This document shows, in pieces, positions 3,271 to 36,694 of a DNA stretch of 40,029 nt. Positions within the stretch are counted from its first letter, which is position 1. Every line of letters starts with the position of its first letter. Made by a program: the position numbers and the translations under genes. This DNA comes from Sediminibacterium sp. Gen4 (lineage in GTDB: Bacteria; Bacteroidota; Bacteroidia; Chitinophagales; Chitinophagaceae). The stretch covers positions 1-40,029 of the forward strand of contig JACBFI010000031.1 of assembly GCA_013391385.1 (NCBI GenBank). The letters run 5' to 3'. The notes under the pieces are model-generated. The model had not been told where the DNA came from, did not search any database, and was given only the letters and a program-made list of their open reading frames with translations.

Positions 3271-4269
3271 ATGAGAAAACTCATACTATACCTCTTACTC
3301 CTCTTCTCTTGCAGTGTTGCAACGGGACAGGATCCTTATTTTTCTCAGTATTTCAGTTCTCCTTTGAGTTTTAATCCTGCATTGACGGGATATATAGATG
3401 GGTCGCAACGGTTGGCGGTGAATTTTAGAAATCAGTGGGCGAATATTTCAACGCCTTATCAAACGGCTGCGGTTTCTTTTGATACCAGAATCATGCGCAA
3501 ACAATTGCCTGATCGCGATCGATGGGGTTTGGGATTACATGCGATGTATGATGTAGCCGCCGGTGGTATTTATAAGAATAGTTATATCGCTTTATCAACA
3601 GGATTCAATAAAGGATTGGATGAAGAGGGCAATCAATCCATCGGTATTGGTATACAAGCTGCTTTTGGCAGAAATGTGGTAGACTTTAATAAGATCAGTT
3701 TTGGTAATCAGTTTACCAGCAGTGGCTTTGATCTTTCGGTACCCAGTGGTGAGAGCATTAATAATCGTTCAGTGGCATATGCTTCAGTGAATGCCGGTAT
3801 CTTGTACAACTATGCAGATGAAGCGGGCAATGCATTTAGTTTTGGTGCGGCGGCTTTTAATCTCACCGGTCCGCGACTGAATTTTTTTACCGGACAGAAT
3901 AGTCGACTTGCACGTAGATATGTATTACATGGAAGTGCATTACTAAAAACAAATGAACAGGATGAAGTTTTCTTCAGTGCCAACCTTATGCAACAGGCAA
4001 GGAATACGCAAGCTGTTATCGGCGGAGCTTATGGTTGGGGTATTGGTAGCAGTGGATATCATTTATATACAGGAGCTTGGTTGAGAGCGGGTGATGCGGT
4101 GTATCCTTATACAGGATTGAGAACGGAAAAGTTTCAGGTAGGTATCAGTTATGATATTACACAATCTGATCTGCGTAAAAGCAATGGCTTTACCGGTAGC
4201 AGTGAGATTTCTTTTATCTGGTTTTTTGATCAGCGTAATAAGGGGAAGATCATTCCTTGTTTTTTTTAA
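3271..4269 (+). CDS. PorP/SprF family type IX secretion system membrane protein
   Basis: 332 residues with an N-terminal signal peptide (hydrophobic stretch ending near 'SVATGQ') followed by the family's opening motif 'DPYFSQYFSSPLSFNPALTGY' region, then alternating beta-strand sequence typical of an outer-membrane barrel. Members of this family are usually encoded just after large proteins with the gliding-motility C-terminal domain and are thought to help surface presentation or anchoring of that cargo. That is the arrangement here, although about 270 bases of repeat DNA separate the two genes. Length is normal for the family. The ATG at 3271 gives the signal peptide directly. The gene ends in a T-rich stretch followed by an inverted-repeat element that separates it from the convergent methyltransferase gene. 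Confidence 0.88.
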   Translation: MRKLILYLLLLFSCSVATGQDPYFSQYFSSPLSFNPALTGYIDGSQRLAVNFRNQWANISTPYQTAAVSFDTRIMRKQLPDRDRWGLGLHAMYDVAAGGIYKNSYIALSTGFNKGLDEEGNQSIGIGIQAAFGRNVVDFNKISFGNQFTSSGFDLSVPSGESINNRSVAYASVNAGILYNYADEAGNAFSFGAAAFNLTGPRLNFFTGQNSRLARRYVLHGSALLKTNEQDEVFFSANLMQQARNTQAVIGGAYGWGIGSSGYHLYTGAWLRAGDAVYPYTGLRTEKFQVGISYDITQSDLRKSNGFTGSSEISFIWFFDQRNKGKIIPCFF

Positions 4270-22728: not shown

Positions 22729-22816
22729 GCTGCAAAATAATGGTTCTGTAGTGTGGCTAAGAAAAAAAACTAACAGACATAAGGAAAATGATTTGACAAT
22801 TCTTTTACAAAAAAGT

Positions 22817-22831
22817 CTACCAAATTTGTAG
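22817..22831. promoter_or_regulatory. Palindrome CTACCAAATTTGTAG overlapping the sulfur promoter
   Basis: Imperfect 15-bp palindrome (arms CTAC and GTAG). Its TTTG at 22825-22828 is also the -33 element of the promoter below, so a bound protein would affect transcription. Similar 15-bp sites occur at 27934-27948 and 32259-32273, both in the sulfur cluster. The shape resembles Rrf2-type (CymR/IscR-like) operators, but no such regulator gene lies in the window (inference). Confidence 0.5.
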
Positions 22832-22857
22832 GGAATAAGAAAATGCCCTTATATTTG
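22825..22857 (+). promoter_or_regulatory. Bacteroidota-type promoter of the cys regulon
   Basis: TTTG at 22825-22828 and TATATTTG at 22850-22857 match the -33 TTTG and -7 TAnnTTTG consensus with a 21-base gap, within the known range. The start of transcription would be a few bases further on, just before the riboswitch at 22877. Confidence 0.7.
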
Positions 22858-22876
22858 GCTTGCGTTCTTTACATCA

Positions 22877-22984
22877 CTTATCCAGAAAGGCAGAGGGAAT
22901 TGGCCCTATGAAGCCTTGGCAACCACTTCCGCCTCAGACGGAAAAAGGTGCCAAATCCACCCGATCCGTATCGGGAGAGATAAG
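22877..22984 (+). promoter_or_regulatory. SAM-I (S-box) riboswitch
   Basis: P1 is formed by CTTATC (22877-22882) and GATAAG (22979-22984). Between them are conserved S-box segments: CCAGAAAGGCAGAGGGA, then TGGCCCTATGAAGCC, TTGGCAACC, and AAGGTGCCAAATCC, with a GATCCGTATCGGG hairpin (P4). S-box RNAs bind S-adenosylmethionine and usually stop expression of sulfur genes when SAM is high. Here it precedes a terminator (23028-23060) and the cysH operon. P1 shares bases 22983-22985 with a possible antiterminator arm, which fits a transcription-level OFF switch. Confidence 0.93.
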
Positions 22985-23060
22985 TCAGAAGTTTTTATAT
23001 ACAGCAACTGTAGAGTAGATATATAAGGCACCTCTGACTGAGCATCGGAAGTGCTTTTTT
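22983..23060 (+). terminator. Expression platform of the SAM riboswitch (antiterminator/terminator)
   Basis: Terminator: GCAC (23028-23031) and adjoining CTC pair with the arm ending GTGC at 23054, followed by TTTTTT. Competing antiterminator: AGTCAGAAGT (22983-22992) can pair with ACCTCTGACT (23030-23039), 9 of 10 positions, which would open the terminator. The antiterminator arm overlaps the 3' strand of P1. Confidence 0.75.
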
Positions 23061-23089
23061 ATTGATGTAATAGATGATGCAGTGACAAT

Positions 23090-23182
23090 ATGAACATGAA
23101 TCAATACCATATGACCTTATCAAACAACCTCTTCCCATATCGAAAGCAGATGTGTTGTTGTACCTGTTGTAAGGCCTGTTGA
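23090..23182 (+). CDS. Cysteine-rich leader peptide (30 codons) upstream of cysH
   Basis: An open frame from ATG 23090 (also in-frame ATGs at 23096 and 23111) to TGA 23180-23182. It encodes 30 residues ending 'MCCCTCCKAC': six of the last nine residues are Cys, all TGT codons, and the peptide ends on Cys just before the stop. It lies after the SAM-riboswitch terminator and 48 bases before the cysH start. Leader peptides rich in the end-product amino acid are the classic signature of attenuation, and polycysteine leader ORFs controlling cysteine operons are known in mycobacteria. Stalling of ribosomes on Cys codons when Cys-tRNA is scarce could alter folding of the leader: bases 23096-23104 are perfectly complementary to 23179-23187. 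The role is inferred; expression is not shown by the sequence. Confidence 0.7.
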   Translation: MNMNQYHMTLSNNLFPYRKQMCCCTCCKAC

Positions 23183-23187
23183 TTCAT
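23096..23187 (+). promoter_or_regulatory. Possible attenuator fold around the cysteine leader
   Basis: ATGAATCAA (23096-23104) is the exact reverse complement of TTGATTCAT (23179-23187), enclosing the leader ORF and overlapping its stop codon. CAAACAA (23121-23127) is likewise complementary to TTGTTTG (23188-23194), a crossing alternative, and ACAAC (23124-23128) can pair with the Cys codon run. A weak AAGGC/GCCTTTT hairpin (23171-23175 with 23209-23215) could terminate. Which fold is used cannot be decided by eye. Confidence 0.4.
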
Positions 23188-23230
23188 TTGTTTGTATCCC
23201 GATTGCCCGCCTTTTATTCATTGTATCATT

Positions 23231-23971
23231 ATGTCAGAAATTTTTAATAGCCATATTGTGGCGCAGTTAGCGCAGGAGATCAAAGATCGCAGCATCGCTG
23301 AATCCATCAGTATTCTGTTGCGTGACTATCCCAATGCCGTTACATTTTCTACCAGCTTTAGTTATGAAGATCAGGTGATCACGGATCTTATTCACCGTCA
23401 TCACTTACCGGTATCACTGTTTACTTTGGATACAGGTAGACTGTTTCCTGAAACCTATAGTACCTGGAGTCGGACATTGGAGTTTTATCAAACCACCATC
23501 AAAGCTTATTATCCCGATGCAACAGAGATCAGTCAATATGTAGAAGCGAATGGTCCCAATGCTTTTTATGAATCCGCTGCATTGAGATCAGCCTGTTGTC
23601 ATATCAGAAAAGTAGTGCCGTTGAAAAAAGCACTGAAAGGGCAATCTGTATGGATCACCGGATTACGTGCTGAACATTCTCCTGCACGTCAGGATCTGAC
23701 AGAACTGGAATGGGATGAAGCCAATCAGATCATTAAGTATCATCCTTTATTATCATGGAGTACAGAAAAAGTGAAAGAGTATATCCATCAGTACCATATT
23801 CCTTACAACCCTTTACATGATAAAGGGTTTATCAGCATCGGCTGTGCGCCTTGTACAAGGGCTGTTAAAGAAGGAGAAGATTTCAGGGCAGGAAGATGGT
23901 GGTGGGAGGATAGCAGTAAAAAAGAATGCGGATTGCATTCGCATCATTCAACAAAAACAACAGAAGCATGA
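23231..23971 (+). CDS. cysH: Iron-sulfur type APS/PAPS reductase
   Basis: 246 residues from ATG 23231; an upstream TTG-started extension has no family support. It reduces adenylyl sulfate (APS), or PAPS, to sulfite using thioredoxin-type electrons in the cytoplasm. 'SFSYEDQVITDLI' (about 42-54) and 'GLRAEHSPARQDL' are nucleotide-binding parts. Cys122-Cys123 ('ACCHIRKV') and Cys205/Cys208 ('GCAPCTR') form the CC...CxxC set that binds a [4Fe-4S] cluster and marks the APS-type enzyme, and the catalytic Cys233 is in the C-terminal 'KKECGLH'. There is no APS kinase in the cluster, which agrees with APS as substrate. First gene after the leader; its stop overlaps the cysD start by 4 bases (ATGA). 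Confidence 0.93.
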   Translation: MSEIFNSHIVAQLAQEIKDRSIAESISILLRDYPNAVTFSTSFSYEDQVITDLIHRHHLPVSLFTLDTGRLFPETYSTWSRTLEFYQTTIKAYYPDATEISQYVEANGPNAFYESAALRSACCHIRKVVPLKKALKGQSVWITGLRAEHSPARQDLTELEWDEANQIIKYHPLLSWSTEKVKEYIHQYHIPYNPLHDKGFISIGCAPCTRAVKEGEDFRAGRWWWEDSSKKECGLHSHHSTKTTEA

Positions 23972-24876
23972 GTGTTTACAGATTAGATTATTTAGATCAG
24001 TTGGAGTCGGAAGCGATTCACATTATGCGTGAAGTGGCCGGACAATTTGAAAGACCTGCACTCTTGTTTAGTGGGGGAAAAGATTCCATTACATTGGTAC
24101 ATCTGGCACTCAAAGCTTTTCGTCCGGGTAAGTTTCCTTTCCCATTGGTACACATTGATACCGGTCATAATTTTCCTGAAGCATTGGATTTTCGTGATGC
24201 GTTGGCAGAACGTATTGGTGAAAAACTCATTGTTCGTCAGGTAGCAGACACCATTCAAAAAAGACAACTCACGGAACCCAAGGGAAAATTTGCCAGTAGA
24301 AATGCATTGCAGACCTATACATTACTGGACACCATCGAAGAGTTTGGTTTTGATGCCTGTATTGGCGGTGCAAGACGTGATGAAGAAAAGGCAAGGGCCA
24401 AAGAAAGAATTTTTTCTGTGAGAGATGAATTCGGACAATGGAATCCCAAACTGCAAAGACCCGAGCTATGGAATACCTATAACGGAAGGATCAATAAAGG
24501 AGAGAATGTACGTGTATTTCCCATCAGTAACTGGACAGAACTGGATATCTGGAATTATATCAAACGCGAAAATATTGATCTGCCTTCCATCTACTTTGCA
24601 CATGAGCGTACGGTGTTGGAATATGAAAATCAACTGATCGCTTTATCGGAATTCATTCAGGTAGAGGAAACGGATGTGGTAGTGACCAAAAAAGTTAGAT
24701 ACCGTACTGTAGGCGATATGACCTGTACTGCTGCGGTAGAATCTGATGCTTCAACTATCAATGATATTATTCGCGAGATTACCGCTACGAAAACCAGTGA
24801 AAGGGGTGAAACTAGAATCGATGATAAAGTGAGTGAAGCGGCAATGGAAGACAGAAAAAAGAATGGTTACTTCTAA
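23968..24876 (+). CDS. cysD: Sulfate adenylyltransferase subunit 2
   Basis: 302 residues from ATG 23968, which overlaps the cysH stop as ATGA; a longer frame from 23926 overlaps cysH without reason. With CysN it makes APS from sulfate and ATP. The PP-loop 'SGGKDS' is at residues 35-40, followed by 'FPLVHIDTGHNFPEALDFRD', 'GGARRDEEKARAKERIFS' and 'FPISNWTELDIWNYI', all typical of CysD. Length is normal for the family (about 300). Cotranscribed with cysH and cysN. Confidence 0.95.
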   Translation: MSVYRLDYLDQLESEAIHIMREVAGQFERPALLFSGGKDSITLVHLALKAFRPGKFPFPLVHIDTGHNFPEALDFRDALAERIGEKLIVRQVADTIQKRQLTEPKGKFASRNALQTYTLLDTIEEFGFDACIGGARRDEEKARAKERIFSVRDEFGQWNPKLQRPELWNTYNGRINKGENVRVFPISNWTELDIWNYIKRENIDLPSIYFAHERTVLEYENQLIALSEFIQVEETDVVVTKKVRYRTVGDMTCTAAVESDASTINDIIREITATKTSERGETRIDDKVSEAAMEDRKKNGYF

Positions 24877-24886
24877 AAACAACAAC

Positions 24887-26128
24887 ATGGACTTACTTAG
24901 ATTTATAACAGCAGGAAGCGTAGACGATGGCAAATCAACATTGATCGGACGATTACTCTATGATAGCAAATCGATCATGATTGATCATTTGGAGGCGTTG
25001 GAAAAACAAAGCAAACACAAGGAAGACGGAGAAATCGATCTGGCTTTGCTAACAGATGGCTTACGGGCAGAACGTGAGCAAGGTATTACGATTGATGTAG
25101 CGTATAAATATTTTGCGACCCCTAAACGTAAATTCATCATTGCAGATGCGCCCGGACATATTCAGTATACCCGTAACATGGTTACAGGTGCTTCCAATGC
25201 AGATCTGGCGATTATTCTGGTCGATGCAAGAAATGGTGTGGTGGAACAAACCCGAAGACATTCGATTATTGCTTCTTTATTGAATATTCCACACATTGTA
25301 GTTGCCATCAATAAAATGGATCTGGTAGATCACTCACAAGATGTGTATAATAATATCGTGATCGACTATGCAGAAGTGGCAAAAAAACTCAACCTGAAAG
25401 AAGTAAAGTTCATTCCCATCAGCGCGTTGAATGGCGATAATATCGTAGAAAAGAGTGTGCAATTTCCCTGGTATGATGGACCTTCATTGCTGGAATTATT
25501 AGAAACAGTAACACTGGAACAGGATATTGATCTTACGCGTGCACGTTTTCCGGTACAATATGTAATTAGACCTCAAACAGATGCTTTACATGATTATAGA
25601 GGCTATGCCGGAAAGATCAATAGCGGGATTTATAAAAAGGGAGATGCCGTAACAGTACTTCCGGCAGGGATTGTAAGTAAAATTGTAGCCATTGAAGTCA
25701 ATGGCAAAGAAGTAGAAGAGGCATTTGCTCCACAAAGTGTAGTGTTGCATCTGGAAGACGATATTGATATTAGTCGGGGTGATGTGATCGTTAAAACCGA
25801 CGCAGCTCCGCAAGTAAGCAATGAACTGGAAGTATTATTATGTTGGATGGATCAAAAACCACTACTATCAGGTAATAAGTACTTGTTACAGATCAATAGT
25901 AAACAGGTTCGCTCTGTTATTAAAGAGATCGATTATCAGCTGGATGTAAACTCATTGGAGAAAATTCCTCATCCGGAAAATATTGGGTTGAATGCCATTG
26001 TAAAAGCAACGATCAAAACAGCGAGTCCGGTGGTGTTCGATCCTTATCAGGAATTGAGAAGTAATGGGGGAGCTATATTGATTGATGAAACCAGTCATGT
26101 AACAGTAGGTGCATGCATGATACAGTAA
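24887..26128 (+). CDS. cysN: Sulfate adenylyltransferase subunit 1 (GTPase)
   Basis: 413 residues from ATG 24887, 10 bases after the cysD stop; an earlier in-frame ATG at 24863 inside the end of cysD is a possible alternative. A translation-factor-like GTPase that drives APS formation by CysD. G1 'GSVDDGKST' (10-18), G2 'GITIDVAY', G3 'DAPGH' (87-91) and G4 'NKMD' (142-145) are all intact. EF-Tu-like beta-barrel domains follow. There is no C-terminal APS kinase (CysC) fusion, so the pathway here goes through APS. One base separates it from cysE. Confidence 0.94.
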   Translation: MDLLRFITAGSVDDGKSTLIGRLLYDSKSIMIDHLEALEKQSKHKEDGEIDLALLTDGLRAEREQGITIDVAYKYFATPKRKFIIADAPGHIQYTRNMVTGASNADLAIILVDARNGVVEQTRRHSIIASLLNIPHIVVAINKMDLVDHSQDVYNNIVIDYAEVAKKLNLKEVKFIPISALNGDNIVEKSVQFPWYDGPSLLELLETVTLEQDIDLTRARFPVQYVIRPQTDALHDYRGYAGKINSGIYKKGDAVTVLPAGIVSKIVAIEVNGKEVEEAFAPQSVVLHLEDDIDISRGDVIVKTDAAPQVSNELEVLLCWMDQKPLLSGNKYLLQINSKQVRSVIKEIDYQLDVNSLEKIPHPENIGLNAIVKATIKTASPVVFDPYQELRSNGGAILIDETSHVTVGACMIQ

Positions 26129-26129
26129 T

Positions 26130-26963
26130 ATGAAAGAAGAACAATTCATACAACAATTATTTCAGCGCAACCGAAAAGCTTTGCATCGTTTTCCGGATAA
26201 GGCTTTGGCAGAAAACTTCACAGAGGATCTGTTCAATTTTTTATTTGGTTCTTATGAGCGGAAGTTCGACTCAGAAAAAAAGCTCTCAGATGAATATTAC
26301 GAATTGAAGCATACTTTTTCAGCGATACTTTTTGAGTTAATAAAAGAGGAGTCAACGGTAAAAAAACATACCGAAACCTTTTTTGAAGCCTTACCTGCTA
26401 TTTATGAAGCACTGTTAACAGATGCAGATGCAGTATTGCGTTTTGATCCTGCTGCGCAGTCTATTGAAGAAGTCCTGGTCGCTTATCCCGGGTTTTATGC
26501 TACGGCTATTTATCGTTTGTCCCATCAATTGTATGTGCAGGGCATCAAAACCTTACCAAGATTACTTTCTGAATATGCACATAGTAAAACAGGAATCGAT
26601 ATTCATCCGGGAGCTACGATCGGCGCGGCATTTGCCATTGATCATGGAACGGGGATCGTGATTGGTGAAACGACTGTAATCGGCGAAAGGGTAAAGATCT
26701 ATCAAGGTGTAACCTTAGGGGCATTGAATGTTTCGAAAGAATTGGCAAGTATAAAAAGACATCCAACCATTGAAGATGATGTGATCATTTACTCAGGCGC
26801 TACCATTTTAGGGGGAGAAACCATCATCGGTACCGGCAGTATCATTGGTGGTAATATCTGGTTAACACATAGTGTGGCGCCTAACTCCGTGGTATATCAT
26901 AAAAGTGAAATACGCATCAAAGACAAAGACCCATTTCCTGAACCTTTAAATTTTGTGATCTAA
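26130..26963 (+). CDS. cysE: Serine O-acetyltransferase
   Basis: 277 residues. It transfers acetyl from acetyl-CoA to serine, giving O-acetylserine for CysK. A helical N-terminal half (about 1-140) is followed by a left-handed beta-helix of hexapeptide repeats ('GIDIHPGATIGAAFAIDHGTGIVIGETTVIGE' region, 'YQGVTLGAL', 'RHPTIEDDVIIYSGATILGG'), where the His of 'DHGTGIVIGET' is the expected catalytic residue. The gene begins 1 base after cysN and cysK follows after 12 bases. SATs often bind CysK through a C-terminal Ile; this one ends 'PLNFVI', so the Ile tail is kept and a cysteine synthase complex is plausible. Confidence 0.92.
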   Translation: MKEEQFIQQLFQRNRKALHRFPDKALAENFTEDLFNFLFGSYERKFDSEKKLSDEYYELKHTFSAILFELIKEESTVKKHTETFFEALPAIYEALLTDADAVLRFDPAAQSIEEVLVAYPGFYATAIYRLSHQLYVQGIKTLPRLLSEYAHSKTGIDIHPGATIGAAFAIDHGTGIVIGETTVIGERVKIYQGVTLGALNVSKELASIKRHPTIEDDVIIYSGATILGGETIIGTGSIIGGNIWLTHSVAPNSVVYHKSEIRIKDKDPFPEPLNFVI

Positions 26964-26975
26964 AAATAAAAACAG

Positions 26976-27887
26976 ATGAAAGCGAATAACATTTTAGAAA
27001 CGATCGGAAATACCCCTCATGTTAAGATCAATAAACTCTTTGGAGATCAGCATGAAGTATGGATCAAATTAGAAAAGAATAATCCCGGGTCCAGTATCAA
27101 AGACCGTATTGCACTCTCCATGATTGAAGATGCTGAACAAAAAGGATTGCTGCATAAAGACAGTGTGATCATTGAACCTACCAGTGGCAATACCGGTATC
27201 GGATTAGCACTGGTAGCTGCAGTAAAAGGATATAAGATCATTTTAGTGATGCCGGAAAGCATGAGCATTGAGCGAAGAAGACTGATGGCATTGTATGGTG
27301 CAGAGTTTGTACTCACTCCGCGTGAAAAAGGGATGAAAGGTGCGATTGAAAAAGCAACCGAGCTGGTTCAGGAAACACCCAATGCCTGGATGCCACAACA
27401 ATTTGATAACCCGGCCAACACGGCTATCCACAGAACTACGACAGCACAGGAGATCTTAGCAGATTTTCCTGATGGACTCGATTATATCATCACAGGTGTG
27501 GGTACCGGCGGACATATTACCGGTGTAGCAGAAATTCTGAAAGAAAAATTTCCGAATCTAAAAGTGTTTGCTGTGGAGCCGGAATTATCACCCGTGTTAA
27601 GCGGTGGTTCCCCGTCGCCACACCCTTTACAGGGAATAGGAGCCGGTTTTGTTCCTTCTATTTTGAATACCAAAGTTTTAGATGGCATTATTCAGGTTGG
27701 TAAAGACGAGGCCTTTGCATTTGCTCAGCGAGCTGCTAAGGAAGAGGGGATTTTACTAGGAGTATCTTCCGGTGCATCTCTGGCTGCTGTGGCAAAAAAA
27801 CTAGCAGAGATTCCTGCCGGTGCAAAAGTGCTCACCTTTAACTATGATACAGGTGAAAGATATTTATCAATAGAAGGATTGTTCTGA
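26976..27887 (+). CDS. cysK: Cysteine synthase (O-acetylserine sulfhydrylase)
   Basis: 303 residues. It makes cysteine from O-acetylserine and sulfide with PLP. Lys42 ('[10 protein letters not shown]') is the PLP lysine, 'TSGNTG' (69-74) binds the substrate carboxylate, '[13 protein letters not shown]' binds the PLP phosphate, and '[27 protein letters not shown]' is the CysK-type active-site loop. '[10 protein letters not shown]' follows near the C-terminus. Length agrees with CysK/CysM. It is the last gene before a terminator-like hairpin at 27896-27919. Confidence 0.94.
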
Positions 27888-27951: not shown

Positions 27952-28806
27952 ATGAATTTGGATAAAACCTATGGTAAAGTAATTCTTGCATCTGCGGGTC
28001 CGGGTGATCCTGAATTGGTGACGTTGAAAACAGTGCGCTGGTTACAACAAGCCGATGTAGTATTAACCGATCGTTTGGTGAGTAAAGAAATGCTGGAGAC
28101 CTATGTTCGGCAGGAAGCAGTGATCATTTATGTTGGTAAACAATGTAGACGTGGTGTCTCAACCCCGCAACAAAGCATCAATGAAATGTTAGTGTCTTAT
28201 GCTGAAAAATACAATACAGTAGTACGTTTAAAAGGTGGTGACACCAGCATCTTTTCCAATGTGTTGGATGAATTACAAACATTGGTACAGTATGGTATTC
28301 CTTATGAGATCGTTCCGGGTGTTACAGCAGCTTTGGGAGCGGCAGCCCATGCAGGCATTCCTTTAACAGCTAGGGGCTTATCAGTGGGTGTACGTTTACT
28401 GACCTATTACAAATCGGATATCGTTTCGGAAGATGTTTGGAAAGATTTGGCACAAACGGATGATACACTGGTTTTTTATATGTCGGGTGAAACATTATCC
28501 ATTGTTGTACAAAAACTCACAGAACACAAGATCGATGCTTCAAAATTATTAGCTGTGATAGAACAGGCCACTACGCCATTGCAACAAATTCATACTACCG
28601 GCTTATATGAATATAATGATACACTGAAAGATAAAAAGTTTCGATCGCCCGCTCTTGTCATCATTGGGAAAGTAGTGGCATTGCATGAACAATTTGCATG
28701 GCTACCCAATACGGATAGTACTGCTCACTATTTTGAACCATTGACAGGACGTGTATCGCAATTGGAAGAAACAGTAAAGGAAAAAAGACATGTTAGCAGA
28801 GCCTAA
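27952..28806 (+). CDS. cobA: Uroporphyrinogen-III C-methyltransferase
   Basis: 284 residues. It methylates uroporphyrinogen III twice to precorrin-2, the first step toward siroheme, the cofactor of sulfite reductase. Motifs: 'GKVILASAGPGDPELVTLKTV' region at the N-terminus, 'LKGGDTSIFSNV', 'YEIVPGVTAALGAAAHAGIPLTARG' region and 'LVFYMSGETLSIV'. These match stand-alone SUMT enzymes; the C-terminus runs about 30 residues past the core. The last 17 bases overlap cysJ, showing coupled translation. The next step of siroheme synthesis is encoded in the fusion gene at 35165. Confidence 0.92.
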   Translation: MNLDKTYGKVILASAGPGDPELVTLKTVRWLQQADVVLTDRLVSKEMLETYVRQEAVIIYVGKQCRRGVSTPQQSINEMLVSYAEKYNTVVRLKGGDTSIFSNVLDELQTLVQYGIPYEIVPGVTAALGAAAHAGIPLTARGLSVGVRLLTYYKSDIVSEDVWKDLAQTDDTLVFYMSGETLSIVVQKLTEHKIDASKLLAVIEQATTPLQQIHTTGLYEYNDTLKDKKFRSPALVIIGKVVALHEQFAWLPNTDSTAHYFEPLTGRVSQLEETVKEKRHVSRA

Positions 28807-30475
28807 ATTCAAAGTATTATCAGAACTGATCGATCAGCTCAGTAAAGAAGAACTGATTTGGGTAAATGGTTATTTATCCGGATTAGTCGCTAATCCTTTG
28901 CCCAATACCAATACTTCGGGCATCACACAAAAGATCACCATTGCTTATGGAACAGAAACAGGGAATGCTAAAAAATTAGCTACTGATCTTGCTGCGAAAG
29001 CCAAGAAAAAAGGGATCCCAGTAAAACTAGCATCGCTTGATCAATACAAACTCACCGAATTATCGAAAGAAGAATATTTTATTACAGTGATCAGTACACA
29101 AGGTGATGGTGAACCACCTGTTGGTGCAAAAAATTTTTATGATCATATTCATAATAACGGATTCAAACTGCCACAATTGAAGTATGGTGTATTGGCATTG
29201 GGTGATACAGCCTATCCATTATTTTGTAAGACAGGAGAAGATGTAGACAAACAGTTTGAATATCTGGGAGGAAAAAGAATTGCTCCCTTACAAAAATGTG
29301 ACCTGGATTATGAAACAGATGCGCATAACTGGTTCGATCAATTGATTTCAAAACTTCATGCAACAGAAACCACAACAGGAATAACCCCGAAGACTACTGA
29401 AGTTAAAAAGACAGTTGGAAAACAATATTATGAAGGAACTATTTTAACGCATATCAATTTAACTGCAAAAGGATCTGCTAAAAAAGTATACCATATTGAG
29501 ATAGCTGCCGATGGTGTTGAATTTCTTCCGGGAGATTCTATTGGTATTGTACCTGAGAATGATGAGCAATTGGTTCAGCAAATATTATCCTTAACAAGCG
29601 TAGCTCCCGATACAACAATTGATTACAAAGGAGAATCCTCTACCATCCATGAACTACTTGTTTCAAAGCTGAATATCCGATACTTGTTAGATAAATCAGT
29701 GAAACACTATGCAACCACAGTCGGAAAAGAGATCAATGTACAGAAAACAGATCTTTTGTCATTGCTGCAACAATATCCCCTTGCATCAAAAGAACAATTT
29801 TTAAAAGTTGTTGAGGGATTGACTCAGATCGTTCCGCGCATTTATAATATTGCTTCATCTCCGGTTGCCCATAGCAACGAAGTACATATCACCGTATTAC
29901 AAGATGTATTTGAAACCAATCATGGAGTAGAAAAAGGATTGTGTACGCAATATTTGGAAAGTAAATATGAAGGAGATTGCGTTCGATTTTTCATTCAACC
30001 GAATAAACGATTCCGTTTACCAGCGGCTGATAAAGATATCATCATGATCGGTCCGGGTACAGGTGTTGCACCTTTTCGCTCATTTGTAGCCGAGAGAGAT
30101 GCCACAGGCGCAACCGGAAGGAACTGGTTATTCTTCAGCGAAGATCAGTTCACGACTGATTTTTTGTACCAAACCGAATGGCAGGCCTGGTTTGAAACGG
30201 AAACGCTTACGCGTATTCATTTGTCTTTTAAAAATGGGCAAGAAAATCATGTAACACTCTCACAAAAGATTGTTGAGCAAGGATCTGAATTATTCCAATG
30301 GCTGGAAGGCGGTGCCAGTATTTATCTCTGCGGAGAAAAAGAGCCGGCAGGAAAAGAGATAGAAGCAGCATTGTTAGAAGTTTTTGCTAAAGCAACTGAT
30401 GGCAAAACCGAAACTGCCATTGCTTATCTGGAAAAACTAAAAAAAGAAGAACGCTACGCAAAAGATCTGTATTAA
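28790..30475 (+). CDS. cysJ: Sulfite reductase (NADPH) flavoprotein
   Basis: 561 residues. It passes electrons from NADPH through FAD and FMN to CysI. After about 50 helical residues comes a flavodoxin domain ('IAYGTETGNAKKLA', 'VISTQGDGEPP', 'LALGDTAYPLFC'), then an FAD-binding domain ('RIYNIASSPVAHSNEVHITV') and a ferredoxin-reductase NADP domain ('MIGPGTGVAPFRSFVAERDA', 'IYLCGEKEPAGKEIE'). Slightly shorter than the ~600-residue enterobacterial enzyme but with all domains. It overlaps cobA by 17 bases and lies 25 bases before cysI. Confidence 0.93.
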   Translation: MLAEPKFKVLSELIDQLSKEELIWVNGYLSGLVANPLPNTNTSGITQKITIAYGTETGNAKKLATDLAAKAKKKGIPVKLASLDQYKLTELSKEEYFITVISTQGDGEPPVGAKNFYDHIHNNGFKLPQLKYGVLALGDTAYPLFCKTGEDVDKQFEYLGGKRIAPLQKCDLDYETDAHNWFDQLISKLHATETTTGITPKTTEVKKTVGKQYYEGTILTHINLTAKGSAKKVYHIEIAADGVEFLPGDSIGIVPENDEQLVQQILSLTSVAPDTTIDYKGESSTIHELLVSKLNIRYLLDKSVKHYATTVGKEINVQKTDLLSLLQQYPLASKEQFLKVVEGLTQIVPRIYNIASSPVAHSNEVHITVLQDVFETNHGVEKGLCTQYLESKYEGDCVRFFIQPNKRFRLPAADKDIIMIGPGTGVAPFRSFVAERDATGATGRNWLFFSEDQFTTDFLYQTEWQAWFETETLTRIHLSFKNGQENHVTLSQKIVEQGSELFQWLEGGASIYLCGEKEPAGKEIEAALLEVFAKATDGKTETAIAYLEKLKKEERYAKDLY

Positions 30476-30500
30476 AATTCACCATTGACCATTCACAAAT

Positions 30501-32171
30501 ATGGCTACAGAAAAAAAATTATCACCCATCGAATCCATCAAAACCAAAAGTGATGGTTTGCGGGGAACGTTAAAAGAAAGTTTAACAGATGAGATCACGG
30601 GCGCTGTTCGTGAACAGGATCATGCATTGATCAAGTTTCATGGTATGTATGAACAGGATGATCGTGACTTGCGCGAGGAAAGAGCTGCCAAAAAGTTAGA
30701 TAAACTATATTCATTCATGATCCGCTTACGGATACCGGGTGGATTCATGACTGCAGATCAATGGATCGCGGCGCATCATGTAGCCGGGCAATATTCCACA
30801 GGTGTCATCAAGATCACTACCCGGCAAACCATACAATTACATGGTATTCTCAAGCATCAGATAAAACCCACACTACAATCATTCAATAAGGTTCAGCTGG
30901 ACTCGATTGCTGCTTGTGGTGACGTGAACCGAAATGTAGCTTGTACCAGTCACCCGGCTGAATCGGACATTCATGAACATGTACATGCTTATGCAGATAA
31001 GATCAGCAGGTTGTTGTTGCCAAAGACAAGAGCCTTTTATGAGATATGGTTGGATGAAGAAAAAATAGCGGAGTATGATGAACAGGATCCGCTGTATCAA
31101 GACCGTTATTTACCCAGGAAATTCAAGATCGGTATCGCTATTCCACCCAATAACGATGTGGATGTGTTGACGAATGACCTGGGTCTCATCGCTATCATCG
31201 ACAACAATGAATTGATCGGTTTTAATATCGCAGTGGGTGGAGGCTTGTCTACCACGCATGGTAATCCGGATACCTATGCCAGACTGGCTACTGTCATTGG
31301 TTTCACAAGAGGGGAAGAACAAACTTTAAAAGCGGTATATGAGGTATTGACCATTCAGCGTGATTATGGAAACCGCTCTGACAGAAAGATGGCCAGATTA
31401 AAATACACGCTGGATAATATGGGTGTGGAAGCTTTTCGTAAGGAATTGGAGAAACGTTGCGGATTTGAATTGGAAGACATTCAACCGTATCAATTCACTG
31501 CACGGAAAGATCGTTATGGATGGATGCAGGATTATAAAGGTAATTGGCACTATACGCTATTTGTTGAAAATGGACGTGTTACCGATGAAAGTCCGATAGC
31601 CTTGCAAAAAGCATTGCTGGATATTGCGGAAACGCAAAAAGCAGTTTTTCGTTTTACCAGTAATCAGAATGTAATCATCAGTGATATTCAGCCACAGGAT
31701 AAAAAAGATATTGAAGATATTTTACAACAACATGGTATTCTGCTTCGCGATGAAAATATTTCATCCATTCGTAAAAATGCGATTGCCTGTGTAGCATTGC
31801 CTACCTGTCCATTGGCATTGGCAGAAGCACAACGTTATTTGCCTGATCTCATTACGAAAATCGAACCCTTGCTGATTAAGCATGGATTATCATCTGAAGA
31901 TATTGTATTGCGTATGACCGGTTGTCCAAACGGTTGTGCAAGACCTTACGCGGCAGAGATCGGTTTGGTGGGCACATCTCCGGGGCATTATAACCTGCAT
32001 ATTGGCGGAGACCATGAAGGGACACGTTTGAATGTGAAATTTAAAGAGCAGCTGGATGAAGCAAACATCCTCGTTGAATTGGATCAGCTCTTTAAGCAGT
32101 ATGCTGATAAACGCAATAAGCATGAACGTTTTGGTGATTTTGTTTTGAAGGAGGTGTTACATGTATCATAA
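30501..32171 (+). CDS. cysI: Assimilatory sulfite reductase hemoprotein
   Basis: 556 residues. It reduces sulfite to sulfide using a [4Fe-4S] cluster and siroheme. Cys430, Cys436 ('CVALPTCPLA'), Cys475 and Cys479 ('TGCPNGCARPY') are the cluster/siroheme ligands; Cys479 is the bridging one by analogy. The N-terminal parts 'RLRIPGGFMTADQW' and 'TTRQTIQLHGIL' are the sulfite/nitrite reductase ferredoxin-like domain, and arginines of this region line the substrate pocket. Length fits CysI. A 106-base gap separates it from the TonB receptor gene. Confidence 0.94.
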   Translation: MATEKKLSPIESIKTKSDGLRGTLKESLTDEITGAVREQDHALIKFHGMYEQDDRDLREERAAKKLDKLYSFMIRLRIPGGFMTADQWIAAHHVAGQYSTGVIKITTRQTIQLHGILKHQIKPTLQSFNKVQLDSIAACGDVNRNVACTSHPAESDIHEHVHAYADKISRLLLPKTRAFYEIWLDEEKIAEYDEQDPLYQDRYLPRKFKIGIAIPPNNDVDVLTNDLGLIAIIDNNELIGFNIAVGGGLSTTHGNPDTYARLATVIGFTRGEEQTLKAVYEVLTIQRDYGNRSDRKMARLKYTLDNMGVEAFRKELEKRCGFELEDIQPYQFTARKDRYGWMQDYKGNWHYTLFVENGRVTDESPIALQKALLDIAETQKAVFRFTSNQNVIISDIQPQDKKDIEDILQQHGILLRDENISSIRKNAIACVALPTCPLALAEAQRYLPDLITKIEPLLIKHGLSSEDIVLRMTGCPNGCARPYAAEIGLVGTSPGHYNLHIGGDHEGTRLNVKFKEQLDEANILVELDQLFKQYADKRNKHERFGDFVLKEVLHVS

Positions 32172-32277: not shown

Positions 32278-35163
32278 ATGAAATTATTATTTATATTTAT
32301 TGCTTTCTTCACATACTCCATAACAGGAATGTCGCAGGACTTGTATACCTATTCCGGAATATTGAAAGATGCTCAACAGGAAACACCATTGAGTGGCGCA
32401 GTTGTACGTATCAAACAAACCAACACATTTGCTGTAGCAAAAGAAGATGGGAGCTTTCAAATTAAAACAACTTTAAAGCCACCGTTTACCTTACAGATCA
32501 GTTCCATCGGTTATGAATCTCAGGAATTTGTGATCAGTAATACCGATAAACCCATCACACTTTCTCTCAACGTACAAAATGTATATGCCGGATTGGTGTT
32601 GGTTACGGCTTCTAGGGTTCCGGAAAGTATTTTGAAATCACCGGTAAGTATTGAAAAGTTGAGTTTATCTGCTATCAAAGAAGCAGCCGCTCCGAGCTTT
32701 TATGATGCACTGGAGAATTTAAAAGGCGTACAATTGACAACCTCCAGTATCACATTCAAAGTGCCGAATACCAGAGGCTTTAATGTGCCCAATAATTTTC
32801 GTTTTGTTCAGTTGGTGGATGGTGTTGATGTACAGGCGGCAACATTGGGGGTGTCGTTGGGCAACTCAGTAGGTCCTACTGAACTGGATGTAGAAAACGT
32901 TGAAGTAACACCGGGTGCTGCATCTGCTTTGTATGGAATGAATGCGATCAATGGTATGGCGAATATTACCACAAAGGATCCTTTTCGATATCCCGGATTG
33001 AGTATCTATCAAAAAACAGGCGTGAATCATGTGGATGGAAAAGACAGAGATCCATCCGTTTTAACAGAAACCGCCATTCGTTTTGCACAAACCTGGAAGA
33101 ACAAATGGGGTTTTAAAGTGAATGCCGGTTACCTGAAAGCTACTGATTGGGTGTCTGATAATAGAACAGATCAGAATCCGAATACTTTAAATACAGCCAA
33201 TCCATTGTATCAAGAGTTATCCGGTAATAACAATGTGGCTTATGATGCATGGAATAAATATGGTGATGAGAACAACAATGCCGTTACTATTTCCGGTATC
33301 AACTACAATGGTCCCAATAAATCTTTTCTGGTACGTAGAACAGGGTATTGGGAGAAAGATCTTACCAATCCAACCGTAGAAAATATCAAATTCGATCTTT
33401 CATTGTATCATAAATTTTCTAAAGGAGCTTTATTGTCTTATACGTATCGATTGGGTCAAATGGATGGCATCTTTCAACGTGGTAATAAAATACAACTGGA
33501 CAATACTTCCATCCAAAATCATAAACTGGAGTTTAAATCTGGTTCTCTTTCAGCACGTGCGTATGTATCTCTTGAAAATACCGGAGATTCTTATAATGTG
33601 AAACCATTGGCCGATAATCTTGAATTAACGCATCTTTCCAATAATGCCTGGAGAGATCGTTTCAGAAATGAGTTACAACTGCAACTCAACAACGGTGTTT
33701 CTCTTCCTGCAGCAATGTCAAGTGCCAGAACAGTTGCCGATGCAGGAAGGGTATTACCCGGAACAGCTGCGTTTGATCAATTGAAAAAGACCATCATTGG
33801 TATCAATAATTGGGATCATCTCAATTCAGGCATAACGGGAGCTCCGGCAACCGGTGGTGCATGGCTTACACAGCAAAGCAGAATGTATCATGGAGATGTA
33901 CAATGGGACTTGCGTTCTAAAATTAAATTCATCCAGCTTTTAGTAGGTGCAGACTATCGTTTGTATGAAGTGATACCGGATGGTAATAATTTTGTGGATT
34001 TTTCAAGAGCGTTAGCTGATAGAAATAAACCACTGAGTGATGGATCTTTTGGAGATCCTGTTACTTATTCAAAGTATGGATTGTTTGTACAGGGTACTAA
34101 AACTTTTTTTGATCAAAAACTAAAGGTAACAACTTCATTAAGATGGGATAATAATCCTGAATTCTCTCCGAAGTTGAATCCCAGAATTGCGGTGGTGTAT
34201 TCGCACGCTCAAAAACATCATTTCAGAATTTCATTTCAAAATGGATTCAGATTTCCCGCTTTATTCGAAGCTGTTTCTTTCGTGAATAATGGAAATGTAA
34301 GAAGAGTAGGTGGACTAGCTTATATCAATGAAGGATTGGGATATCTTGATAATTCCTACACACTCAGTTCCGTCAACACATTTAATGCGGCAGTTAATAG
34401 AGATATTGCTGCCGGACTAACCGCTAATAATGCAGCGCTGAAAAATAGAGATTTACTACAGGTAACTAGTTTGTCTACAACAAGACCAGAAAGGATCAAC
34501 TCGTTTGAAATAGGTTATAAAAGCGTATTGTTCAACAATCGCTTAGTATTAGATATAGAAGCTTATGCAAATGAGTATGATGGTTTTTTAGGACAGGTTG
34601 AGGTTGCTGTTCCGGAAAACAATACCGTTAAAGTTGGTTCAGATGCTGCAGTTATTGCCATGCTGGCATCTAACCGTTCCAAACAAACAAGATATCGTGT
34701 ATATACCAATGCAAAGAACAGGTATTATAACTATGGAGCGGCAGCGGGTGTGATTTATACCTTATACAAGAAGTTCATTGTATCCGGTAATTTAACTTTT
34801 AATAACCTGAATGAAAGCAAAGAGCGTGATGTTTTTGTGACAGGTTTCAATACACCTCGTTGGAGTTCTAATGTATCATTCAGAAATAGAGCATTATTTA
34901 AGCACACCGGATTTAATCTTGTTTGGAAGTGGCAGGATCAATTCAATTGGGAAAGCCCGCTGGCTAATGGAGCCATTCCTGCTTTTAGTACAATCGATTT
35001 ACAAGTAACCCAAGAGTTACCTGTGTTAAAAACCACCATTAAGATTGGGGGCAGTAACGTCCTTAATCACCGTTACATACAGTATGCAGCCGGACCAACC
35101 ATTGGAGCGTTATATTATGTAGCGCTTAGTTTCGATACTCATTTTAAACAAAAAAAACAATAG
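32278..35163 (+). CDS. TonB-dependent receptor in the sulfur regulon
   Basis: 961 residues. A signal peptide (about 1-20, ending 'GMSQ') is followed by a carboxypeptidase-regulatory-like domain (about 24-105, 'GILKDAQQETPLSGAVVRIKQT' region), a plug domain ('NTRGFNVPNNFRFVQLVDGVD', 'VTPGAASALYGMNAINGMANI') and a large outer-membrane barrel. Such proteins import scarce ligands using TonB energy. The ligand is not visible in sequence, but position between cysI and the siroheme synthase-transporter fusion (1-base gap to the latter) points to a sulfur-containing ligand or a cofactor of the pathway. There is no SusD partner, so glycan import by a Sus-type complex is unlikely. The barrel ends 'SFDTHFKQKKQ', without the common terminal aromatic residue. 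Confidence 0.9.
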   Translation: MKLLFIFIAFFTYSITGMSQDLYTYSGILKDAQQETPLSGAVVRIKQTNTFAVAKEDGSFQIKTTLKPPFTLQISSIGYESQEFVISNTDKPITLSLNVQNVYAGLVLVTASRVPESILKSPVSIEKLSLSAIKEAAAPSFYDALENLKGVQLTTSSITFKVPNTRGFNVPNNFRFVQLVDGVDVQAATLGVSLGNSVGPTELDVENVEVTPGAASALYGMNAINGMANITTKDPFRYPGLSIYQKTGVNHVDGKDRDPSVLTETAIRFAQTWKNKWGFKVNAGYLKATDWVSDNRTDQNPNTLNTANPLYQELSGNNNVAYDAWNKYGDENNNAVTISGINYNGPNKSFLVRRTGYWEKDLTNPTVENIKFDLSLYHKFSKGALLSYTYRLGQMDGIFQRGNKIQLDNTSIQNHKLEFKSGSLSARAYVSLENTGDSYNVKPLADNLELTHLSNNAWRDRFRNELQLQLNNGVSLPAAMSSARTVADAGRVLPGTAAFDQLKKTIIGINNWDHLNSGITGAPATGGAWLTQQSRMYHGDVQWDLRSKIKFIQLLVGADYRLYEVIPDGNNFVDFSRALADRNKPLSDGSFGDPVTYSKYGLFVQGTKTFFDQKLKVTTSLRWDNNPEFSPKLNPRIAVVYSHAQKHHFRISFQNGFRFPALFEAVSFVNNGNVRRVGGLAYINEGLGYLDNSYTLSSVNTFNAAVNRDIAAGLTANNAALKNRDLLQVTSLSTTRPERINSFEIGYKSVLFNNRLVLDIEAYANEYDGFLGQVEVAVPENNTVKVGSDAAVIAMLASNRSKQTRYRVYTNAKNRYYNYGAAAGVIYTLYKKFIVSGNLTFNNLNESKERDVFVTGFNTPRWSSNVSFRNRALFKHTGFNLVWKWQDQFNWESPLANGAIPAFSTIDLQVTQELPVLKTTIKIGGSNVLNHRYIQYAAGPTIGALYYVALSFDTHFKQKKQ

Positions 35164-35164
35164 C

Positions 35165-36694
35165 ATGGAAGTGATAGCGTCTGTAGATAAAAGCAATGCT
35201 GCATCCTTTGTTCATAAAAAGAACAATCGACTTTTTCCTGTTTTTCTTCAATTGGAAAGACTTAGGGTATTGATTATTGGCGGAGGTCCGGTAGCAGTTG
35301 AAAAGCTACAGGCACTATTAGCTAATGCACCTTGTACGAGAATACGAATCGTAGCAAAACAATTTTCTGAAGAACTGTTACATATCGCTGCAGATAAAGA
35401 CCATGTAGAGCTTGTTCCTAAAAGTTATTCTTCAGGCGATTTGTATGATGCAGATATTGTGATTGTTGCGGTCAATGATATAGTTACAGCAGAAGAAATC
35501 AGAAATGATGCAAAAGCCAGAAAAATCCTGGTGAATGTTGCTGATACGCCTGCACTCTGTGACTTTTATTTAGGCTCCATTGTACAGAAAGGGAATCTGA
35601 AAATTGCCATTTCTACTAATGGTAAATCACCTACAATCGCAAAAAGGGTAAAAGAAACATTGCATGAGGTGATCCCGGATGAAATGGATCTATTGCTGGA
35701 TAACATGCAGCAGATCAGAAATCAACTAAAAGGTGATTTTTCGGAGAAAGTTAAAAAGCTGAACGAGATCACATCAGTAATGTCTCCTCATCCGCAAAAA
35801 CAATTCTCGGTTGCTGAAAAAAGATGGAAAAAAATTGCTTCCGGATTCCTGTTTGCTTTCTTCTTCATGTTTGTGGGTCATCTTGTGCTATCCTATATTC
35901 CATTTACAACATTGTTCAGTGAATCTAAAAATTTACTACAGTCACTGGACAGTACTTTTTATTGGATGATATTGGCGGGCTTTCTGGCGCAATTAGTAGA
36001 TGGCGTATTGGGTATGGGATATGGAGTGGTATCTGCTACCGTATTATTGTCTCTTGGTGTTAAACTTCCTGCCATCAGTGGTAGTATTCATACCGCGGAA
36101 ATGTTCTCCAGTGCAGCATCAGGGTATAGTCATTATCGTTTTGGGAATGTCAATAAAAAATTATTCAAAACCTTACTGATACCGGGTGTCATTGGTGCGA
36201 TACTGGGTGCGGTTTTATTATCAACCTTGGCCGATCAATACACGAATTATATAAAACCGGCATTAGCTGCCTATACATTATTTCTGGGGATTCGAATTTT
36301 AAGAACCGGCTTTTCAAAAGAAAGAAAGCAAAAAAAATTTCGTCGTGTAGGATGGTTGGGAGCGATCGGTGGTTTTTTAGATTCTTTTGGTGGTGGTGGT
36401 TGGGGGCCATTGGTAACCAGTACATTGATTCTGAAAGGAAGAACACCGCGATATGTGATAGGCTCAGTGAGTATTACAGAGTTTTTTGTAACGCTGGCAA
36501 GTGCAGCAACTTTCTTTTCATTGTTGGGGATCTCTCATTGGCCGGTGATCGCAGGATTGATCATTGGTGGATTAATAGCAGCACCATTAGCAGCAAGGCT
36601 AACAGGAAAACTTCCTTTGAAAACCATGTTCATTGCTGTAGGGATCATGGTGATTATTTGGAGCTTGCGTATTTTATGGAACTCTGTTTTTTAA
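35165..36694 (+). CDS. Fusion of siroheme synthase (precorrin-2 dehydrogenase) with TauE/SafE transporter
   Basis: 509 residues in two parts. Residues ~22-210 are a Met8/CysG-N-type domain: 'LFPVFLQLERLRVLIIGGGPVA' region with Rossmann Gly-rich loop 39-44, 'IVIVAVND', 'ILVNVADTPALCDFYLGSIV' and 'AISTNGKSPTIAKRVKE'. It should oxidise precorrin-2 and possibly insert iron to give siroheme. Residues ~225-509 are a multi-helix TauE/SafE (TSUP) transporter with the two family repeats 'GFLAQLVDGVLGMGYG' and 'GAIGGFLDSFGGGGWGP'. TSUP proteins move sulfite, sulfonates or related anions. The fusion ties cofactor synthesis to transport at the inner membrane. No separate sulfate permease is seen in the window, so this domain is a candidate for the job (inference). 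Confidence 0.88.
   Translation: MEVIASVDKSNAASFVHKKNNRLFPVFLQLERLRVLIIGGGPVAVEKLQALLANAPCTRIRIVAKQFSEELLHIAADKDHVELVPKSYSSGDLYDADIVIVAVNDIVTAEEIRNDAKARKILVNVADTPALCDFYLGSIVQKGNLKIAISTNGKSPTIAKRVKETLHEVIPDEMDLLLDNMQQIRNQLKGDFSEKVKKLNEITSVMSPHPQKQFSVAEKRWKKIASGFLFAFFFMFVGHLVLSYIPFTTLFSESKNLLQSLDSTFYWMILAGFLAQLVDGVLGMGYGVVSATVLLSLGVKLPAISGSIHTAEMFSSAASGYSHYRFGNVNKKLFKTLLIPGVIGAILGAVLLSTLADQYTNYIKPALAAYTLFLGIRILRTGFSKERKQKKFRRVGWLGAIGGFLDSFGGGGWGPLVTSTLILKGRTPRYVIGSVSITEFFVTLASAATFFSLLGISHWPVIAGLIIGGLIAAPLAARLTGKLPLKTMFIAVGIMVIIWSLRILWNSVF

Follow-up and report, generated by a model that had tools for sequence, protein, structure and literature searches.

Putative cysteine leader ORFs ahead of cysH and cysE in Chitinophagaceae, Rufibacter and kin

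Does a short open reading frame crowded with cysteine codons, lying just ahead of a sulfate-assimilation operon, allow that operon to sense cysteine? The question is raised by the window, the 40,029-nucleotide stretch of DNA from Sediminibacterium sp. Gen4 analysed here. On its plus strand an ORF (23090..23182) runs from an ATG at 23090 to a TGA at 23180-23182 and encodes the 30-residue peptide MNMNQYHMTLSNNLFPYRKQMCCCTCCKAC. The last nine codons form a cysteine tract, CCCTCCKAC (23153..23179, plus strand), in which six are Cys codons, every one of them TGT. A spacer of 48 nt (23183..23230, plus strand) follows before the cysH ATG at 23231. The first-pass annotation had reported this ORF, and its coordinates, peptide and six TGT codons match the window sequence exactly; its placement directly upstream of cysH is borne out by the 48 nt between leader stop and cysH start. 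It had also judged a chance origin unlikely, and the counts agree. Among the 1,072 short ORFs of the window (8-60 residues, both strands) the leader is the sole case with at least five Cys in its last nine codons. Shuffling the window 200 times with its dinucleotides preserved gave 298,347 short ORFs, none with at least six Cys among those codons and three with at least five.

Matches to NCBIfam profiles identify the genes behind the leader, on the plus strand, as a sulfate-assimilation operon with cysH in first position. The (P)APS reductase gene cysH (23231..23971) matches PF01507 and, at 263 bits, NF002537, which names the product phosphoadenylyl-sulfate reductase; its start is the ATG at 23231, the TTG at 23192 of the raw ORF list being an upstream extension. 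It is followed on the same strand by cysD, for the small subunit of sulfate adenylyltransferase (23968..24876; TIGR02039, 422 bits), and cysN, for the large subunit (24863..26128, start approximate; TIGR02034, 557 bits). Next come an internal cysE-like serine O-acetyltransferase gene with no leader of its own (26130..26963; TIGR01172, 162 bits, below the model cut-off of 210.65) and the cysteine synthase A gene cysK (26976..27887; TIGR01139, 416 bits). Genes for uroporphyrinogen-III C-methyltransferase, a cysJ-like protein and cysI occupy 27952..32171, with TIGR01469 and TIGR02041 above cut-off and TIGR01931 (cysJ) at 510.6 bits, below its 668.15. Farther along, a gene that by eye is TonB-dependent receptor-like (32278-35163) precedes an ORF at 35165-36694 in which a siroheme-synthase N-terminal domain (TIGR01470, residues 24-194) is fused to a long hydrophobic part; by eye this part resembles a TauE/SafE-type permease.

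Is the leader peculiar to this genome? Sediminibacterium is a member of the Chitinophagaceae by taxonomy look-up, and the nearest named relatives by cysH are a metagenome-assembled genome labelled Sphingobacteriales (93%) and Sediminibacterium genomes (72-76%). We collected cysH loci through a search of relatives (cysH match in 40 of 150 genomes, 30 loci taken), a search of named genome contigs (80 cysH loci) and a family search (cysH in 234 of 394 genomes, with 28 further loci and 80 upstream stretches taken by place). This gave 216 cysH loci, 212 of them with 265 nt upstream and 199 distinct in the 150 nt ahead of cysH; L016 and L020 were left out because their cysH starts off the contig. 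A leader was called where a short ORF ended at most 260 nt from cysH and held at least three Cys, two of them adjacent, in its last twelve residues. The cysH strand carried such an ORF at 97 of the 199 distinct cysH loci and the opposite strand at 15; shuffled upstream regions had it in 66 of 3,980 cases (Fisher p 5e-21 for the strand difference, in a set where the loci are not independent). The same tail test applied to other residues gave, out of 199, two loci for Trp, none for His and one each for Met, Asp and Glu; for common residues the counts on the cysH and the opposite strand were 85 and 82 for Leu, 35 and 22 for Lys, and 28 and 14 for Phe. The conserved Cys-rich ORF that the first-pass annotation proposed to look for in relatives therefore exists.

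An in-frame ATG is found in all 97 leader-positive loci. The longest frames run from 13 to 83 residues with a median of 24, the quartiles of the distance from leader stop to cysH are 48, 56 and 72 nt, and the last Cys is the final codon of the leader in 65 of the 97. As is the hallmark of amino-acid leaders, codons for the amino acid that the operon itself makes, here cysteine, lie close to the leader stop. A different count, on the first 110 loci, pointed the same way: 27 short intergenic ORFs carried three consecutive Cys near their end, 23 of them with a gene within 300 nt and 24 ahead of cysH, the others being L004 and L036 on the minus strand and L079. The three-in-a-row control on these loci gave Trp 0, His 2, Gln 1, and Leu 57, of which 26 had a gene that near. 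Searches anchored on cysH and cysE were used in place of genome-wide TGY patterns; the latter proved useless, the run TGYTGYTGYTGY followed by TRA matching 365 of 396 genomes and a looser pattern matching 144 + 178 places in the genome of the window itself (control 22 + 27). As an untried reading, this background may consist mostly of poly-Gln stretches on the other strand.

The leader is not evenly spread. By source it was present in 14 of 17 loci among L001-L018, none of the 11 distant loci L019-L030, 19 of 74 named contigs and 64 of 97 in the family set; by this criterion it was missing from 102 of the 199 loci. The family search as a whole had it in 66 of 99 cysH loci and lacked it in 33. 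All five loci of Rufibacter (Cytophagales by taxonomy look-up) and Sabulibacter carry it, and in Spirosoma, Dyadobacter, Larkinella and similar genera it is nearly absent (1 of 37). A phylum-wide search (cysH match in 155 of 345 genomes) supplied 28 new loci, with a leader in three of six family members and doubtful, more distant cases in three of the 22 others. Candidates at L288, L291 and L305, which lie farther upstream or in long frames, were left uncounted. On this sequence evidence the putative cysteine leaders are widespread in Chitinophagaceae, Rufibacter and kin, and the finding is real and larger than first noted.

The leaders are not confined to cysH. A scan of cysK loci revealed Cys-tailed ORFs ahead of cysE, and we examined cysE genes identified by their likeness to the cysE of the window, 50 distinct loci from 58 places with duplicates merged by genome by hand. 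A cysE was taken to have a close upstream ORF if one of at least 100 residues ended within 150 nt upstream of it. Leaders were found at eight of the 23 cysE genes lacking such an ORF and at none of the 27 that had one (Fisher p 9e-4); a ninth, at L321, was recognised only by the criterion of the cysK scan. A leader ahead of a cysE that heads its unit, and none at an internal cysE such as that of the window, would be expected if transcription units are under cysteine control. One hit, at L052, was dropped, its downstream ORF being unconvincing. The polycysteine short ORFs ahead of cysE are those of L316, L318, L319, L321, L343, L344, L347, L354 and L355.

We then asked whether the cysteine run is read as codons. 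Of 58 pairs of neighbouring TGY runs, 53 share a frame (47 of 52 when distinct strings are counted), and a reverse-strand control gave one of four; in five of the 58 pairs a stop codon lies between the runs in the frame of the first. Runs held in one frame argue that the signal is coding, since an RNA-only role would allow any frame. Over the 97 loci the leaders use TGT 339 times and TGC 162 times. By eye, the N-terminal parts of the peptides look unrelated between clades, with the Cys tail and its position kept; tails that recur are CCCC, CCKSKCCC and CCNKYCCCC directly before the stop, and CCCSSCCCC followed by one residue. The flanking DNA, whose drift the first-pass annotation had proposed to check, likewise differs between clades by eye. 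Its expectation of coding constraint fared unevenly. The frame of the runs upholds it, but the synonymous count is weak: in 18 aligned groups, with gapped columns dropped and with L043 and L205 coming from the same contig, Cys columns were unchanged in 156 cases, synonymous in 16 and non-synonymous in 30, and other columns 317, 44 and 170. Judged from these comparisons, the pattern is that expected of a translated frame under selection.

The start of the leader in the window is less obvious, because an internal ATG at 23150 (giving MCCCTCCKAC) is an alternative candidate. In the closest relative, L031, whose cysH is 93% identical, the codon matching 23150 is ATC, and the upstream ATGs persist together with the Cys tail, QICCCCVC before the stop. 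This favours a start at 23090 or 23096. The tails of the two leaders, CCCTCCKAC and CCCCVC, are related through substitutions and an in-frame 9-nt difference. In the window the leader is also in frame with cysH, with no stop codon between the TGA and the cysH ATG (23180-23231). Over the 97 loci the spacing between leader stop and cysH, taken modulo three, was 0 in 41, 2 in 29 and 1 in 27. As it is a multiple of three in only 41 of 97, the shared frame is probably due to chance, and we discarded a reading in which ribosomes read through from leader to cysH.

Several elements lie upstream of the leader. An imperfect palindrome, GTCTACCAAATTTGTAGGG (22815..22833, without strand), is a possible repressor operator; our guess is that it is perhaps the operator of an Rrf2-type repressor. 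The word GTAGAC occurs upstream of cysH in 39 of the 97 leader-positive loci and 16 of the 102 leader-negative ones. A promoter-like element predicted from sequence, TATATTTG (22850..22857, plus strand), fits the Bacteroidota -7 element TAnnTTTG. The riboswitch mentioned in the first-pass annotation is real: cmscan places a SAM-I aptamer, RF00162, at 22875..22986 on the plus strand with 79.8 bits (E 2.3e-17), above the gathering score of 44.4. A terminator-like hairpin with a T-run, assigned to the riboswitch, follows at about 23025..23060 on the plus strand (-12.2 kcal/mol in a stem-loop scan); it is absent from the list of a consensus terminator scan. SAM-I riboswitches were found in 15 of 60 scanned sources. 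Two pairs of sources were the same locus, and of the 58 distinct loci 13 have the riboswitch on the cysH strand and 45 have none on that strand; at L207 it lies on the strand opposite cysH. Three of the 60 sources, L008, L015 and L017 from the closest set, have no leader by the criterion. The riboswitch is an ordinary member of its family and a module separate from the Cys leader. On the minus strand of L018, from another family of the same order, an ORF ending in seven Cys (2373-2520, about 156 nt before cysH) sits close behind a SAM-I riboswitch (2522-2619).

How might the leader affect the genes behind it? In the window, RNA 23062-23262 has a fold z-score of -2.91, with one of 200 shuffles as stable, and the cysH AUG is predicted to be buried in a long-range helix of 20 bp. 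The 5' arm of this helix (23062..23085, formed by 23062-23069 and 23074-23085, plus strand) stops 4 nt short of the leader ATG, and the 3' arm (23218..23237, plus strand) contains the start codon of cysH. When the leader was masked in the model by making every nucleotide as far as 9 nt beyond the last Cys codon unavailable, an extreme form of ribosome queue, the cysH start became more open (predicted openness 0.71, against 0.28 unmasked). The unmasked value depends on the upstream context included, being 0.28 with 30 nt, 0.67 with 10 nt, a context that removes the 5' arm of the helix, and 0.46 when folding begins at the riboswitch. Across loci the gain in openness on masking was greater for native than for shuffled spacers (p 2e-5 for 97 loci, 1e-4 for 58 sequence clusters).

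Leaders were also matched with cysH starts swapped in from other loci, and native pairing was the stronger (0.306 vs 0.239, p 9e-4) in the 90 of 97 loci with a stop-to-start distance of up to 100 nt that were used in the pairing and swap tests. By the 58 clusters the swap test gave p 0.013, with a mean empirical p of at most 0.1 in 18 of 58. A first, coarser division into 24 clusters gave p 0.057; it had lumped loci via shared TGT words (one cluster held 37 loci) and was replaced post hoc by the 58. We had considered that the Cys codons pair with the cysH start everywhere, and this fails: direct pairing of the two was not significant over 97 loci (p 0.57), nor were duplex-energy swaps of Cys codons against the cysH start (p 0.11 to 0.14), and duplex swaps with the upstream arm were marginal (p 0.057). 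We retain it for some loci. In 12 of 16 well-pairing loci the Cys codons are partnered with a 3' arm located between -14 and -2 of cysH, with matching arms of differing sequence (CGTGTTG:CAACACG, TTCTGTTG:CAACAGAA and TGCAATTGTT:AACAATTGCA); these loci were picked for good pairing, so their helices serve as illustration and not as a test. The word ACAACA falls within 30 nt of the cysH start in 8 of 97 leader-positive and 3 of 102 leader-negative loci. Since the helix differs between clades, any single structural model is weakened. In the window, moreover, the distance from the 5' arm down to the Cys codons exceeds 60 nt, and a single stalled ribosome would therefore not cover that arm.

The comparative pattern strongly suggests that stalling on Cys codons acts as a cysteine sensor, and the regulatory interpretation put forward in the first-pass annotation gains support from the conservation of the leader, the in-frame runs and the cysE leaders. 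The leader is probably a ribosome-mediated attenuator that sets cysH output by translational attenuation, an output step reasoned from modelled folds. We favour this on the strength of the swap test, in which native pairing between leader and cysH start exceeded that of swapped combinations. From the sequences and predicted structures we infer stalling, opening of the start and the direction of the response as follows. When charged Cys-tRNA is scarce, ribosomes nearing the end of the leader would lose speed or halt on the Cys tract, and others would queue behind them. The queue would keep leader RNA away from the start of cysH, leaving cysH and the downstream genes to be translated. With plentiful cysteine, ribosomes would clear the leader, whose RNA could then pair with the cysH start and block initiation. 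In the window the predicted blocking helix would join 23062-23085, just upstream of the leader start, to 23218-23237 at the cysH start; in some relatives the Cys codons themselves may be the blocking strand. The upstream riboswitch would add a separate, SAM-dependent step, so that with both in place the operon would be transcribed at low SAM and translated well only at low cysteine. It may be, although we put this forward tentatively and lean against it, that these leaders form a large class of fast-turnover cysteine sensors of Bacteroidota. Here the Cys codons or the leader start region would serve at once as the sequence that the ribosome reads and as the strand hiding the start of a cysteine gene. 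Parked ribosomes would turn translation on with no terminator or conserved fold, helices of unrelated sequence would have been reinvented clade by clade, and in some clades a SAM riboswitch stacked upstream would let a single operon sense SAM through transcription and cysteine through translation.

The same leader and sensor could instead act through Rho-dependent termination, which we think unlikely but worth serious attention. A stalled ribosome would then mask a Rho site in the C-rich, G-poor spacer, and with enough cysteine the ribosome would leave and Rho would stop transcription before cysH. The composition of the spacers (6,229 nt from 97 loci) is suitable, with C at 0.245 and G at 0.114, and the median C/G ratio of the last 60 nt is 1.82, where 45 further gene starts of these loci give 1.28 (p 3e-4); yet G-poverty would equally keep the start region unfolded. 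That the Cys tract runs right up to the stop codon at 65 of the 97 loci also suits Rho, as does the rarity of terminator-like hairpins between Cys run and cysH, which were found in five of 97 loci (-7.1 to -10.6 kcal/mol). A similar suggestion, called weak, appears in the text on mycobacterial cys leaders in Seliverstov et al. (2005, PMC1262725). The excess of native over swapped pairing and the predicted opening of the start, however, would be unexpected if Rho acted alone.

It is very improbable that the ORF product is a working small Cys-rich protein, for example one binding metals or thiols, and no regulator. Richness in Cys is the only point in favour of such a role, but lengths that range from 13 to 83 residues, and N-termini unrelated between clades where just the Cys tail and its position are kept, argue against it, as does the absence of matches for six leader peptides compared with NCBIfam and four compared with Pfam. 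We give slightly less credence still to classical transcription attenuation of the trp/his type. The position of the leader peptide, its codon bias and the hairpin after the Cys run in those five loci would fit it, but the intrinsic terminator between leader and first gene that defines such attenuators was not found, the hairpin scan detecting none after the Cys run in the window or in 92 of 97 loci altogether; the terminator-like hairpin of the window precedes the leader and fits the riboswitch. Least probable of all is that the UGY repeats form an RNA element, an anti-start strand whose frame is incidental: Cys codons do show more downstream pairing than their shuffled counterparts (p 4e-5 for 97 loci, 0.008 for 58 clusters), with perfect helices between Cys codons and start region in some loci, but the frame is shared across separated TGY runs in 53 of 58 pairs, 65 of the 97 leaders end on Cys and many loci have no such pairing.

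Regulation by a stalled leader ribosome has parallels elsewhere. In tnaC of E. coli a ribosome stalled on the leader changes Rho access by masking, and in ermC a stalled ribosome on the leader frees a hidden start site. The proposals weighed here are alike in that a stalled leader ribosome would alter Rho access or a start site; the signals in tnaC and ermC are free tryptophan or an antibiotic, unlike the single scarce charged tRNA that we infer here. The tna operon is named in PMC1262725, and ermC in PMC2965389.

Leaders of this kind are known from Actinobacteria: mycobacteria have polycysteine leaderless short ORFs (Canestrari et al. 2020, doi 10.1111/mmi.14498), and Seliverstov et al. (2005, PMC1262725) treat cys and cbs leaders of that phylum. 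Like ours, the actinobacterial leaders are described as short ORFs with consecutive Cys codons shortly before the stop, placed ahead of cysteine genes and lacking an obvious terminator. The present set differs from the mycobacterial one, compared by description and from Bacteroidota sequences only, in its phylum, in the genes behind the leader (cysH or cysE) and in a start-region pairing that varies by clade. With a SAM-I riboswitch upstream on the same strand, the Bacteroidota ORF would also not be leaderless on the riboswitch transcript. In Rhodobacterales, PMC8632094 describes uORFC-8-2 upstream of cysS, which is similar in being a tandem-Cys uORF presumed to sense Cys-tRNA; it differs in having two Cys codons, a U run that would fit an intrinsic terminator, and a tRNA-synthetase as target. 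Within the Bacteroidota, clues to leader-peptide attenuation upstream of amino-acid operons come from Flavobacterium psychrophilum (PMC9723704), the same phylum and the same placement as here; the passage concerned deals with transcription elongation and names no cysteine leader or amino acids. Leader-like sORFs have also been remarked on in Bacteroides thetaiotaomicron. Our search of mostly open-access main texts turned up no account of cysteine leaders from Bacteroidota, consistent with the statement in the first-pass annotation that none was known; to that extent the present set appears to be newly described.

Start sites in Bacteroidota are mostly without Shine-Dalgarno sequences. If the reading of these leaders as translational attenuators is true, codon-run cysteine sensing would extend from Actinobacteria into a second phylum, and the Bacteroidota leaders would show how such a leader acts without a terminator. 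The tandem of SAM riboswitch and Cys leader would offer a ready two-signal system, and the results on frame, cysE and swapping yield predictions that can be tested in the laboratory.

Two loci show tandem arrangements. At L049 two short ORFs containing CC (3610-3700 and 3779-3884) lie one after the other ahead of cysH and are followed by a hairpin and T-run; they are not positive by the main criterion. At L291, whose genome belongs to another family of the same class, tandem Met- and Cys-rich short ORFs (1110-1185 and 1276-1387, with MMMCMCC and MMMMCC) precede cysH and may serve as leaders for the two sulfur amino acids.
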